Source of the DNA: Candidatus Latescibacterota bacterium | GTDB taxonomy: Bacteria > Latescibacterota > UBA2968 | Direction: 5' to 3' | DNA length: 64,000 bases | Assembly: GCA_022821275.1 (NCBI GenBank) | Contig: JAJEDY010000083.1 | Location: forward strand, 1-64,000 | Shown here: piece by piece, positions 26,671 to 31,664 of the stretch | How positions within the stretch are numbered: position 1 is the first letter of the stretch | Layout: each line of letters opens with the position of its first letter | Notes under the pieces: generated by a model | The model's database searches: none | Seen by the model: the letters and a program-made list of their open reading frames with translations, nothing else | What the model was told of the DNA's origin: nothing | Program-made: the position numbers and the translations under genes

Positions 26671-26686
26671 TATTAATTTTTTAATT
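26671..26686. promoter_or_regulatory. BlaI-type operator candidate 1
   Basis: TATTAATTTTTTAATT overlaps the first two bases of the -35 box of the blaI-like promoter. It matches operator 2 at 14 of 16 positions. Confidence 0.5.
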
Positions 26687-26713
26687 GACACTCTCTTTCT
26701 TTTTCTTTATATT
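26685..26713 (+). promoter_or_regulatory. Promoter of the blaI-blaR1-like operon
   Basis: TTGACA (26685-26690), a 17-base T-rich spacer and TATATT (26708-26713) form a consensus promoter 39 bases upstream of the blaI-like start. Confidence 0.75.
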
Positions 26714-26724
26714 TATTTTGGAAG

Positions 26725-26740
26725 TATTAAATTTTTAATA
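26725..26740. promoter_or_regulatory. BlaI-type operator candidate 2
   Basis: TATTAAATTTTTAATA has 7-base perfect arms around TT. It lies at about +5 to +20 of the promoter and 11 bases before the blaI-like start, a classic repression position. Confidence 0.6.
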
Positions 26741-26751
26741 GTGAGGGCTAT

Positions 26752-27141
26752 ATGGGCAGACGAAGATCCCCTACTCTGACAGATGCCGAACTGAGATTGA
26801 TGCAGGTAATTTGGGATCGCGGCTCGGCCACAGTGAGCGAGGTTGTCAATACACTCGCCGGACGTGAGTCTCCGGCGTATAGCACAGTATTGACAATATT
26901 GCGCATTCTGGAACAGAAGGGGTATTTGCGGCATGAAAAAGAAGGCAGAGCCTTTGTGTATTATCCAATCGTAGGGCGAGAGGATGCACAACGAAGCGCC
27001 ATTCAGTATCTGATGAGTCGTTTTTTCGACAACTCACCAGAAACCCTGGTACTCAATCTGGTAGAAAATGAAGAACTCGATGCGCAAGACCTCGCCCGCA
27101 TTCACAAAATGATTCAGAAGGCAGAGGAGGATGAAACATGA
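26752..27141 (+). CDS. BlaI/MecI-family transcriptional repressor
   Basis: This 129-residue winged-helix repressor has LTDAELRLMQVIWDRGSATV (9-28), STVLTILRILEQKGYLRHEK (44-63) and a C-terminal dimerisation helix region ending in ARIHKMIQKAEEDET. In the family, proteolysis by the partner M56 membrane protease inactivates the repressor. The start ATG follows GAGGG. Its last codons overlap the start of the M56 gene by 4 bases, coupling the two. Two similar palindromes flank its promoter and a third lies before the tonB-like gene, so it likely represses both. The signal sensed need not be beta-lactams. Confidence 0.92.
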   Translation: MGRRRSPTLTDAELRLMQVIWDRGSATVSEVVNTLAGRESPAYSTVLTILRILEQKGYLRHEKEGRAFVYYPIVGREDAQRSAIQYLMSRFFDNSPETLVLNLVENEELDAQDLARIHKMIQKAEEDET

Positions 27142-29162
27142 TGGGCGAATGGATTGATACCATTGCCCGGCTCAGCGTGTTTTATCTGCTGAATGGGATC
27201 TGGATGGGCGTTTTGGCCGCAATGATTGTGGCTGTGCTCTCGCGTTTGCGCGTGCCTGCGTCTTTGTTACACCGCCTGTTGTGGATCGCCGTGATTGGCG
27301 TGATGATTATGCCTCTGTTTCTCGTCACACCTGCACCATACGAGACCGTAGATAAACCGGACGCAACGATTCCGCCAACCAGAGTTCTGGATACCAATCT
27401 CGCCAGTGAGATATTACAACCGCACCCTCAAGTTACAACGCCTGTGAAAACCCGGTCGGTTTTTTCCTGGCCGATTATCGTCTGGATTTTATGGCTGGTC
27501 GTTGCCTGTGCAATGCTCGGGCGCATAGCACTGGGATATTGTCAGATGATTCGGTTGAAGCGATCTGGAAAGTGGGCGGGAAAGGATCTACAGGCGCGGT
27601 TTGAGCGATACAAACGCAGATGGATTGGCTCAGCGGACGTTGGTTTGCGAATTTCAGATGCTGTTGCCAGCCCCGCAGTGCTGGGTATTTTTCGCCAGAT
27701 CGTTCTCATACCGCGACATCTCATACCGCAACTGTCAGCACCCGAACTGGAGCAAATTCTCAAGCATGAAATCGCGCATGTTCAACGCAAAGATGCCCTG
27801 GGCATTCTGGTGCAGCGCCTCGTGGAAGTTCTTTTGTGGTGCAATCCCGGCATCTGGTGGCTGAGTAGGCAACTGTCACTGACGCGGGAAATGGCCTGCG
27901 ATGAATATGCCGCGCATTCCGGTCACAATGCACGTGATTATGCGCTCTGTCTGACGCGCCTGACAGAAATGATTGGCAGGGTGCGCCCAATAGGTTTGGG
28001 CATTATAAATCGCCATCCGAATCTCGTAAAACGGTTTGAATATCTGCTCAGTCAGCGCCGCCCATCGCTGTCGCACAGTGCCATCTGGCTCGCGATATTT
28101 ATATTTGCCTGTGTCATCGCTGTAAAAATCGGTCCTCTCATCGATGTGCCCGGTCGAGCCGAAACCCATTTGAAAATTTCCCGATGGAGCAAACCGCTGG
28201 CAGACGTGCTTATCGGCAATCCGCTACCCCGGGGTATTGGACTAACCAGTAAAATTGTGGTCGTGGCCGATGGAACCACCCGAGAAGCGTTAAGACCAGT
28301 ACTGGAAGATTTACTATTAGATCCAATTTTGACGCCGCAGCCCGAGTACGTATTTGATCTCGTATATGTTTCTCCCGAAGCATTTCGGGATTTTCGGGCT
28401 TACCGCAATTTGATCCTCGTTTCATCTGCAAATGGTATTCTCTCGACAAACTTGCAGCCGCTGCTCACGGGACATTCTAAAAATGAGACAATGATTCACC
28501 GCGATGTGTGGGCATCAGATCAGATAGTTATAGCAGTCAAGGCTGCAGATACCCAGAGTGTGGCGGAGCAAGTCGCGCTCAATGGCGACCGCATTGTATC
28601 GGCGATTGACGCATCAATGGCAAAATGGCTCGAAACCATTCTGTATCACGCGGGAGAAAATATCGAGCATTCTGAAGCCCTATCACGGCAATTTGGGTGG
28701 CGCCTGCGGGTGCCGGTAGGATATGAAGTGATGGCTGAGTATGCAAATGAGAACTTTGTGGCACTGGCGCGCCAGGTAGATCGACGACAATTGTGGCTCT
28801 GGGTATATTGGGAAGATGGCGTACATCCCGATCAATTGACGCCAGATTGGTGTTTGCAAAAGTGGGACGACGTATCGAGCCGTTTTTATGGCGGCGATCA
28901 AACATCATCTGGGGAGGTGAATATTTACCAGACGGAGTTTCTGGGTAAATTGGCCATTTGCCTGGAAGGACTGTGGGAGAATACACGCGCGTGGCAAGGT
29001 GGGCCATTTAAGAGTTATGCACTCTTTGATGTCGCTCAGAATCGCTTCTTTTTAATCAATATGGGGATCTATGCACCTAACCGCACAAAGGCGCTTCAGA
29101 TGCGACAACTCGATGTACTGGCTCACACCTTTAGTCTTAAAAGCCTGCGAAAGGGGGGATAG
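27138..29162 (+). CDS. M56 (BlaR1-like) sensor metalloprotease with DUF4837-like C-terminal domain
   Basis: In this 674-residue membrane protein, residues 1-330 form the M56 part. Transmembrane helices lie at about 13-35, 45-63, 110-132 and 315-331. The zinc protease motif HEIAH is at 210-214, and a REMACDEYA segment (250-258) supplies a further Glu. In family members this half cleaves the partner BlaI repressor. The usual penicillin-binding sensor is absent. Residues about 355-670 instead resemble DUF4837: KIVVVADGTT, FDLVYVSPEAFRDFRAYRN, DVWASDQIVIAVKA, LRVPVGYEVM, CLEGLWENTRAWQGGPFKSY and NMGIYAPNRTKALQMRQLD. That domain should lie outside the cytoplasm and act as the sensor, which is inference. 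The gene overlaps blaI by ATGA. Confidence 0.88.
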   Translation: MMGEWIDTIARLSVFYLLNGIWMGVLAAMIVAVLSRLRVPASLLHRLLWIAVIGVMIMPLFLVTPAPYETVDKPDATIPPTRVLDTNLASEILQPHPQVTTPVKTRSVFSWPIIVWILWLVVACAMLGRIALGYCQMIRLKRSGKWAGKDLQARFERYKRRWIGSADVGLRISDAVASPAVLGIFRQIVLIPRHLIPQLSAPELEQILKHEIAHVQRKDALGILVQRLVEVLLWCNPGIWWLSRQLSLTREMACDEYAAHSGHNARDYALCLTRLTEMIGRVRPIGLGIINRHPNLVKRFEYLLSQRRPSLSHSAIWLAIFIFACVIAVKIGPLIDVPGRAETHLKISRWSKPLADVLIGNPLPRGIGLTSKIVVVADGTTREALRPVLEDLLLDPILTPQPEYVFDLVYVSPEAFRDFRAYRNLILVSSANGILSTNLQPLLTGHSKNETMIHRDVWASDQIVIAVKAADTQSVAEQVALNGDRIVSAIDASMAKWLETILYHAGENIEHSEALSRQFGWRLRVPVGYEVMAEYANENFVALARQVDRRQLWLWVYWEDGVHPDQLTPDWCLQKWDDVSSRFYGGDQTSSGEVNIYQTEFLGKLAICLEGLWENTRAWQGGPFKSYALFDVAQNRFFLINMGIYAPNRTKALQMRQLDVLAHTFSLKSLRKGG

Positions 29163-29196
29163 ATCAGGCTGAGTCAGATATTTTTTTGAGACTAAC

Positions 29197-29212
29197 TATT
29201 AAATTATTAATA
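29197..29212. promoter_or_regulatory. BlaI-type operator candidate 3, before the tonB-like gene
   Basis: TATTAAATTATTAATA (6-base arms, 4-base centre) matches the first half of operator 2 exactly and the end closely. It overlaps a possible promoter (TTGAGA at 29186-29191 and TAATAC at 29208-29213) 17 bases upstream of the tonB-like start. Confidence 0.55.
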
Positions 29213-29228
29213 CTTAAAAAAGGAGAAA

Positions 29229-29870
29229 ATGATGATTCGCAAAAAACATGCAGATGCCGATTTGAAAGCAACTTATCCAAAGGTCATGAGACGATCTACT
29301 TCGTTAACGCTGTTTCTGATGGTCGGATTGGCCATTTTGTTTCCAGATATGAAGATCGACTCTAAATCGACCAAAAAAGTTATTGAGGTGGTCAAAGTTG
29401 TAGATATTCCCGAGACACATCAGAAGAAGCGATTGCCGCCTGTGCCAAGACCCTCCGTACCCATTCCAACAGAAGACGAAGACGTGCCCGAGGATGTGAC
29501 CATTGCCGATACAGAACTGGATTTCGATGCACCTGTCGTCGATATCCCACGACTGATAAAGAACGATGTGGAAGTAGAGGAAGAAATTTTGGAATTTTGG
29601 ATCGTGGAACAAAAACCCGAATTGATCCAGCGCGTGAATCCAGTTTATCCAGAGATGGCTCGCAGAGCGGGTCTGCAAGGCCAGGTGCTTGTGGCGTTTA
29701 TTGTTACCAGAGAAGGGCGCGTAGCCGAACCACAAGTTTTAAAAGGCCCCGAGATTTTTCGCGCTGCAGCTCTGGAGGCAGTCAGGCAATTTCAGTTCAA
29801 GCCAGCCATGCAAAATGACAGAGCAATTGCTGTACGCATGACCATTCCGATCCGTTTCAGTTTGCATTGA
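29229..29870 (+). CDS. TonB-family energy-transducer-like protein
   Basis: This 213-residue protein has one transmembrane helix near 24-40 (SLTLFLMVGLAILF) and a periplasmic linker rich in Pro and Glu (about 60-120). Its C-terminal TonB domain (about 135-213) contains YPEMARRAGLQGQVLVAFIV and AALEAVRQFQFKPAM. The N-terminus lacks the standard His-containing helix of classic TonB, so interaction with ExbB/ExbD is uncertain, and no exbBD or receptor is adjacent. AAGGAG precedes ATG 29229. A BlaI-type palindrome at its promoter implies coregulation with the repressor-protease operon. It may link the sensed envelope state to transport or signalling. Confidence 0.85.
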   Translation: MMIRKKHADADLKATYPKVMRRSTSLTLFLMVGLAILFPDMKIDSKSTKKVIEVVKVVDIPETHQKKRLPPVPRPSVPIPTEDEDVPEDVTIADTELDFDAPVVDIPRLIKNDVEVEEEILEFWIVEQKPELIQRVNPVYPEMARRAGLQGQVLVAFIVTREGRVAEPQVLKGPEIFRAAALEAVRQFQFKPAMQNDRAIAVRMTIPIRFSLH

Positions 29871-29975
29871 ACCAGGCCCCTGTGTGAAACGACTTCTCTT
29901 GAAATACGGACAAATTGGGGATATATTGAGCAGGTCTTCGATTTGCTGGAAGTCGTTCACTCATGGGGGTTATGC

Positions 29976-31664
29976 ATGCTAAAATACGAATCACTGTTGG
30001 AAAATCTGGATGAACAGATAGAAGCCATTTTACCCCGTCAGGTTATGGATGTGGGACGAGAAGATTACGGTGGGTTTGTCAGCGATGGTATTGCGGGAGC
30101 CACAAATGTGAGCGCAATATCCACCCTGGGTTATGCCTATCTTCTGGAAGGCGGGCGATATTATCAAAGCGAAGAAATTCTGGCGCGCATTCTCGCAGGC
30201 GCGGCCTTCGCGCGAAAAATTCGTCGGCCAAGTGGGTGCTTTGACCTGATAACAACTAATTTTGACTCATCGCCAGACACGGGATTCCTGGTCGAGGGAC
30301 TCGCGCCGGTAGTTCGCGCGGCTCGCAAAGCAGGAGATGACGGCGCGGAACAGATTGCCGAAGTACTCGGTGAAATTATTCAAACGGCTGCACCGGGCAT
30401 GATCGCAGGCGGATTCCACACGCCGAATCACCGCTGGGTATTGGTCGCCGCGCTTTCTCAAGCACTGGAATTATTCCCCGATCTCGACGGGATGGACACC
30501 ATTGAAAGCTATCTCGCCGAAACAATAGACAACAATGCCGATGGCGAATACATCGAGCGCAGCGCAGGCACGTATAACGCCATCTGCAATCGCGCGCTGA
30601 GACTGGCTGCCGACGCACTCAATCGCCCCCAACTTCTGGAACCCGTGCGCCGAAATCTGGATTTATCCTATCACATGTTACATGCAGACGGAACTGTTGT
30701 AACGAGCTTTTCTCGCAGACAGGACCACGGCACGCGCGTTGTTCTGGTCAACATGGTCGATAGCTATTACGATATGGCGCGTCGTGAGGAAAATGGATTT
30801 TACGCGGCCGTCGCAGACTGGTTGTACTCCATATCCCCGGGCGGTTTGCCCTGGGCACTGGAACCGTTTTTAACCCATCCCGAATGGCGAGTCGATAACC
30901 TGAAACGTGAGCCTTTGCCCGAGTCGTACGCAAAGGTTTATCCCACAGCGAGATTGTGGCGTGTGCGGCGCAGAAAAACGAGTGCCACAGCAGGCGCAGG
31001 TATAACATCGCCATTTGGCGTAAAGCATGGAGACGTGGAATTGGCCTCGGTGAACCTGTGCGCGAGTTATTTTTCTATCGCGCAATTTTCAGGTGAGACC
31101 TTTGAGGAAGTGGATGGCAAAATCAGGATGACGCATGTGAGTTCAGATGGCGGCAGACCCGGTTATGACCTGCCATTGGGACGCGAAGTCGCTTTTGAGG
31201 AATTTTACAATTTGCGAAAAGAAAGAGATGTGTACTCGCTGCCACCGCTAACGACAGCATTGGAAATTAAAGAAGTGGATAGCGGCTTTAATCTGCACGT
31301 AAAATCAGAGGGCTATGACCGCGTGCCATTTCAAATCGCGTGCGATTTTGTCCCGGGTGGCGAACTGGATTTTGACAGCGGCATCGTGCGCGGCCAGGCC
31401 GCAGAAGTCGCATTCCTCAAATCCGGATATGCGACCTACCACATAGGCAACGATGCCATTTCCATCGGACCGGGCGCGTATGCCCATCGCTTCTGGGCGT
31501 TGCGAGGCAGTGAGTCCGCCCCCACAGCCTTCCGCGTATTGCTGACATTTACGACGCCCGTGGATCACATGCTGGAAATCAGATGCGGAACGTGGTCGGT
31601 CGTAGTTACGTCTGTACTACCTGAATCAGGTTACCGCAGGTGTCGTCAAAGACGGCCATGGTGA
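29976..31664 (+). CDS. Putative (alpha/alpha)-toroid enzyme, heparinase-like layout
   Basis: This protein of about 562 residues has an N-terminal helical half with GCFDLITTNFDSSPDTGFLV, GGFHTPNHRWVLVAAL and SAGTYNAICN. Its second half (about 330-550) is strand-rich, like a heparinase II/III or PL-type lyase. The NHRW and TYN residues are plausible catalytic-site motifs. ATG 29976 has GGGGG upstream, whereas the earlier TTG at 29943 has none. The last 20 codons run antisense into the end of the VOC gene at 31606, so the natural end may lie earlier and a frameshift near 31600 is possible. Glycan cleavage is inferred. Confidence 0.55.
   Translation: MLKYESLLENLDEQIEAILPRQVMDVGREDYGGFVSDGIAGATNVSAISTLGYAYLLEGGRYYQSEEILARILAGAAFARKIRRPSGCFDLITTNFDSSPDTGFLVEGLAPVVRAARKAGDDGAEQIAEVLGEIIQTAAPGMIAGGFHTPNHRWVLVAALSQALELFPDLDGMDTIESYLAETIDNNADGEYIERSAGTYNAICNRALRLAADALNRPQLLEPVRRNLDLSYHMLHADGTVVTSFSRRQDHGTRVVLVNMVDSYYDMARREENGFYAAVADWLYSISPGGLPWALEPFLTHPEWRVDNLKREPLPESYAKVYPTARLWRVRRRKTSATAGAGITSPFGVKHGDVELASVNLCASYFSIAQFSGETFEEVDGKIRMTHVSSDGGRPGYDLPLGREVAFEEFYNLRKERDVYSLPPLTTALEIKEVDSGFNLHVKSEGYDRVPFQIACDFVPGGELDFDSGIVRGQAAEVAFLKSGYATYHIGNDAISIGPGAYAHRFWALRGSESAPTAFRVLLTFTTPVDHMLEIRCGTWSVVVTSVLPESGYRRCRQRRPW

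Follow-up and report, generated by a model that had tools for sequence, protein, structure and literature searches.

A BlaR1-like receptor of Latescibacterota predicted to use DUF4837 in place of the penicillin sensor

Receptors of the BlaR1 type are known mainly as sensors of beta-lactams. The locus described here lies in a stretch of 64,000 nucleotides (the window) from a Latescibacterota genome, and it raises the question of what such a receptor would perceive, and which genes it would control, when a domain of another family stands in the place of the penicillin sensor. The reading that we favor, with a probability of roughly 70%, is that of a BlaR1-like receptor with a swapped input, DUF4837, which would cleave BlaI and thereby derepress its own operon and tonB, together with redoxin genes in a sister genus. 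The features on which this reading is built are the following (window coordinates).

26672..26685, no strand: predicted operator O1, ATTAA-TTTT-TTAAT, which abuts or overlaps the -35 box of the blaI promoter
26685..26713, + strand: predicted promoter of the blaI operon, TTGACA-17-TATATT (11/12 consensus)
26726..26739, no strand: predicted operator O2, ATTAA-ATTT-TTAAT, just downstream of the blaI -10 box
26752..27141, + strand: BlaI/MecI/CopY-type repressor, 129 aa (Pfam Penicillinase_R, 5.4e-36; MecI/BlaI structure alignment)
27138..29162, + strand: receptor gene, M56 zinc protease with a C-terminal DUF4837 domain (Pfam, alignments)
27207..28043, + strand: M56 domain, with HEIAH (aa 210-214), D219, E251xxxD255, and Y268 kept in 14/14 fused proteins
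28239..29129, + strand: DUF4837 domain, proposed extracytoplasmic sensor (Pfam; model pLDDT 90.5)
29186..29214, + strand: weak predicted promoter of tonB, TTGAGA-17-AATACT (promoter prediction)
29198..29211, no strand: predicted operator O3, ATTAA-ATTA-TTAAT, upstream of tonB and inside the weak predicted promoter
29229..29870, + strand: TonB-family protein, 213 aa, predicted output gene (Pfam TonB_C, 5.1e-22)

Domain content of the receptor

The receptor is encoded by an uninterrupted open reading frame of 674 aa with an ATG start. In the Pfam search, Peptidase_M56 (PF05569) matched residues 24-302 (2.4e-31; 109.5 bits against a cut-off of 31) and DUF4837 (PF16125) matched residues 368-663 (3.6e-40; 138.3 bits against a cut-off of 25), the latter over positions 3-294 of a 295-position profile, i.e., at full length. 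The original prediction had recognized an N-terminal M56 protease with HEIAH and had named DUF4837 from a series of motifs; the search bears out the former and makes the latter statistically certain, with the quoted motifs falling inside the match. The four hydrophobic segments of the receptor (near residues 9-44, 39-69, 105-138, and 309-339), taken together with HEIAH, fit the BlaR1 layout.

The M56 part aligned by sequence to the cryo-EM structure of Staphylococcus aureus BlaR1 (8exs) over residues 93-314 (7.6e-7). The residues essential in BlaR1, namely H201ExxH, D210, E242xxxD, and Y261 (PMC9834060), are matched by H210ExxH214, D219, E251xxxD255, and Y268 of the receptor and are invariant across the 14 aligned fused sequences; since every fused protein carries them, the M56 enzyme is predicted to be active. 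The full-length AlphaFold model was poor (pLDDT 64, with most of the membrane part below 50) and was set aside, so the topology proposed here is drawn from hydropathy and homology.

The DUF4837 domain, modeled with 28 relatives, gave a mean pLDDT of 90.5 and a pTM of 0.86. Foldseek matched this model to PsbP, Mog1, DcrB, mycobacterial Apa/MTC28/LpqN, and Eag chaperones in the PDB (E down to 2.7e-5, with about 110-180 aligned columns of 312), and the match length and strand order suggest that the PsbP/Mog1-like part is the C-terminal half of the domain. Several of these fold relatives are either secreted or lipoproteins of the envelope. No penicillin-binding fold was present among the listed PDB matches, a PDB search by sequence with the domain returned no relative, and the receptor had no Pfam match to any transpeptidase or beta-lactamase family, in agreement with the earlier claim that the extracytoplasmic half has no such fold. 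Twenty-six DUF4837 columns are invariant between fused and standalone forms, and the fused domain of the receptor's own genus (g1) has a deletion of roughly 10 residues.

With the BlaR1-BlaI and MecR1-MecI systems of Staphylococcus and Bacillus licheniformis, the locus shares an M56 gluzincin with four helices and identical catalytic residues, a C-terminal domain placed after the last predicted membrane helix, an adjoining BlaI-type repressor, and paired palindromic operators (predicted here) at the promoter. It differs from them in two respects: (i) the sensor of BlaR1/MecR1 is a class D beta-lactamase-like penicillin-binding domain, whereas here DUF4837 stands in that place, and (ii) the operator arms are ATTAA/TTAAT and the predicted target is tonB, in contrast to blaZ or mecA. 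As the defining penicillin sensor was tested for and is absent, the receptor falls outside the beta-lactam receptor family proper.

The operon and its predicted operators

The genes are arranged in the order blaI, M56::DUF4837, tonB, with an overlap of 4 nt between the blaI-type gene and the receptor gene. The BlaI-type protein aligned to MecI/BlaI structures without a gap through the cleavage region, where its LVLN/LVENEEL (the slash marks the putative cleavage point) stands opposite LVLN/F of MecI and the counterpart in genus g7, of a sister family, is LMLN/I. The P1' Phe of the BlaI cleavage site is almost invariant (PMC9834060); the Leu of this genus and the Ile of g7, against the Phe of known BlaI/MecI, count against the cleavage reading.

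Alignment of the blaI upstream spacers of both genera revealed that one block, TATTAATTTYTTAATTGACA, is invariant while the sequence around it has diverged; the block contains the palindrome ATTAA-N4-TTAAT adjoining the -35 box of the blaI promoter. The predicted sites O1 and O2 are thus dyads at the regulator's own promoter, as in BlaI/MecI circuits. Exact ATTAANNNNTTAAT sites number four in the whole 5.66-Mb genome, three of which are in the receptor locus. By shuffling, 0.05 operators were expected in the window, two operators in the blaI spacer arose in 0/20,000 shuffles, and one operator in the tonB spacer arose in 49/20,000. All three positions are kept in every fused genome (10 + 4), the arms being fixed and the middle four bases variable. 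The TonB ortholog is 86-94% identical in other fused genomes of the genus; in G038, a member of the same genus without the receptor, this ortholog is missing (the best match is a 53% paralog), and ATTAA-N4-TTAAT sites number zero.

The fourth exact site (G000:C18:81493-81506) is intergenic, upstream of a PhyH-type dioxygenase-like gene, and is common only to G032; it is either a chance occurrence or an extra target. Further sites in g1 (e.g., on G033:C23 and G034:C45) were set aside as chance, being inside coding regions and no commoner than a reversed control pattern. Next to tonB, a gene for a 573-aa protein without a Pfam match (29943-31664) is kept beside the operon in the genus.

The promoter-operator block occurs a second time in g7, where in each of the four genomes it stands ahead of a gene for a secreted TPR-redoxin protein (AhpC-TSA, 2.7e-15), with the second site mismatched in two of the four and the gene start some 300-700 bp away; the spacer up to that start (loci L129-L132) is long and variable and seemingly contains inserted repeats. 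Two of the four carry, in addition, a TlpA-like redoxin gene (AhpC-TSA, 9.8e-24; WCGPC motif) between the third operator and tonB. With TonB and redoxins as targets, the predicted outputs are all envelope proteins.

The genome encodes other M56 proteins that, like the receptor, join the protease to periplasmic-type domains beside a BlaI-type gene. On C29 (G000:C29:58149-64903, L102), two adjacent M56 proteins, apparently a tandem duplication, have four and two C-terminal TonB_C domains, with the BlaI-type gene between them; on C40 (L101:2151-6631), the gene that comes after a BlaI-type gene encodes an M56 protein of 1346 aa, which bears three CarboxypepD_reg domains along with an AhpC/TSA redoxin module. 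Unlike the receptor, they bear these domains instead of DUF4837, and their loci contain zero exact ATTAA-N4-TTAAT sites. Because these proteins also adjoin BlaI paralogs, cross-talk is possible.

Distribution and origin of the fusion

A search for the same architecture, as the original prediction had proposed, recovered the M56-DUF4837 fusion from 14 genomes in two families, all of them Latescibacterota: 10 of the 11 genomes of g1 and all four of g7. In G035 and G020 a contig end truncates the gene; an assembly artefact is excluded by its presence in many genomes, including the single-contig assembly G037. The domain itself occurs in 25 of the 64 Latescibacterota genomes and in 63 of 82 KSB1 genomes; it is therefore not confined to Bacteroidetes-type organisms, as the original prediction had it. 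No M56 fusion was seen in the 82 KSB1 genomes. Four long KSB1 frames (G080, G082, G086, and G088) resembled fusions by length and proved not to be M56 proteins. Bacteroidota were sampled through four plasmid-collection records, in which three of three inspected DUF4837 proteins were standalone, and viral contigs gave no match. The scan of the genome collection used a narrow alignment (A2), which may have failed to pick up distant fusions, particularly any in Bacteroidota. As to the records themselves, MAGs titled Gemmatimonadota (L057, L059, L063, L064, L073, L074, and L079) group with Latescibacterota, and the Parabacteroides and Bacteroides "plasmid" records (L080-L082) carry the housekeeping genes lptC, rlmN, and secG and resemble mislabelled chromosome pieces.

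Standalone DUF4837 lipoproteins of Latescibacterota, KSB1, and Bacteroidota contain the same full-length domain as the receptor; they lack M56 and have a signal peptide with a lipobox where the receptor has TM4. One is encoded in the same genome (G000:C18:17049-17957), and every fused genome checked carries such a lipoprotein too, as do many genomes without the fusion. The standalone gene adjoins sbcCD and the alanine racemase gene alr in this order, genes for O-mannosyltransferase-like and LPG-synthase-like membrane proteins in KSB1, and sits in the lptC...lptE gene row in Bacteroidota; these neighbors point to the cell envelope.

In a tree of 37 DUF4837 domains, the fused domains formed one clade (90/95) that falls inside the standalone domains of this order (100/100), on long stems of 0.86 and 1.34 changes per column, which, as the tree program warned, may attract each other. 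The simplest history that accounts for this placement is that duplication and fusion took place once, within this order, and that the fused domains then changed faster. The fusion may have been lost from G038 and from other genera, or may have been transferred between g1 and g7.

Proposed signal and its alternatives

Modeled on the signalling mechanism established for BlaR1 (PMC9834060), the circuit would operate as follows: (i) DUF4837, a duplicate of the domain in the lineage's own envelope lipoprotein, would follow the fourth helix and lie on the outer side of the inner membrane; (ii) an envelope ligand or state would meet DUF4837 and activate the cytoplasmic-facing M56 zinc protease; (iii) the activated protease would cut BlaI near LVLN/LVENEEL; and (iv) the cut BlaI would leave the ATTAA-N4-TTAAT operators, derepressing the receptor's own operon and tonB and, in g7, the redoxin genes as well. 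The use of DUF4837 as an input, which the original prediction had put forward as new for this signalling class, gains support from the recurring blaI-receptor-tonB operon with its conserved operators, while the sensing role is deduced from the position of the domain.

With regard to the ligand, the sensor of BlaR1 resembles class D beta-lactamases, which act on the same ligand (PMC7593790); by this parallel, the DUF4837 domain of the receptor may recognize whatever is handled by the resident lipoprotein of the same family. That this is an envelope component, to which the cell would respond with TonB and periplasmic redoxins, is a tentative proposal that we hold at somewhat less than even odds. 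Alternatively, the domain could sense a protein, either the resident lipoprotein itself (mislocalised or unoccupied) or its partner, through domain-domain contact. The co-occurrence of the lipoprotein with the fusion in every genome checked and the descent of the fused domain from the lineage's own copies are in line with such contact, but the strong divergence of the fused domains (the stems given above) and the deletion in g1 argue against a simple homotypic interaction, and we consider this alternative rather unlikely. Fast evolution of the fused domain could also reflect a passive or degenerate fusion, with the protease constitutively on or off and DUF4837 a mere anchor; the invariance of the catalytic residues and of the 26 DUF4837 columns, and the retention of operators and operon across two families, make this improbable. 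A genuine beta-lactam receptor whose penicillin-binding domain had escaped recognition would share the BlaI and M56 pairing of bla/mec systems, but it can practically be dismissed, given that DUF4837 covers the whole domain with no transpeptidase or beta-lactamase match, that the fold matches PsbP/Mog1/DcrB/LpqN, that the receptor scored far below the cut-offs of the NCBIfam BlaR1 models (78.9 against 400 for blaR1_generic, covering the protease half alone), and that no beta-lactamase was found among the neighboring genes scanned.

The literature searched contained no mention of DUF4837 or PF16125, and a search for non-beta-lactam M56 sensors gave nothing relevant. To conclude, judged from sequence, a receptor class known for antibiotic sensing appears to have been redirected to an envelope signal in sponge-type Latescibacterota, and the M56-BlaI relay would be able to couple to another input domain, here one from a lipoprotein family. 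The circuit is predicted to have a defined operator and a minimal set of targets. An operator-tonB reporter would make both the input of the receptor and the ligand of DUF4837 accessible to screening. If the more tentative proposal of an envelope component as the signal is true, the circuit would represent an envelope-status pathway that acts via direct proteolysis of a repressor and would provide the first functional read-out for the DUF4837 family.
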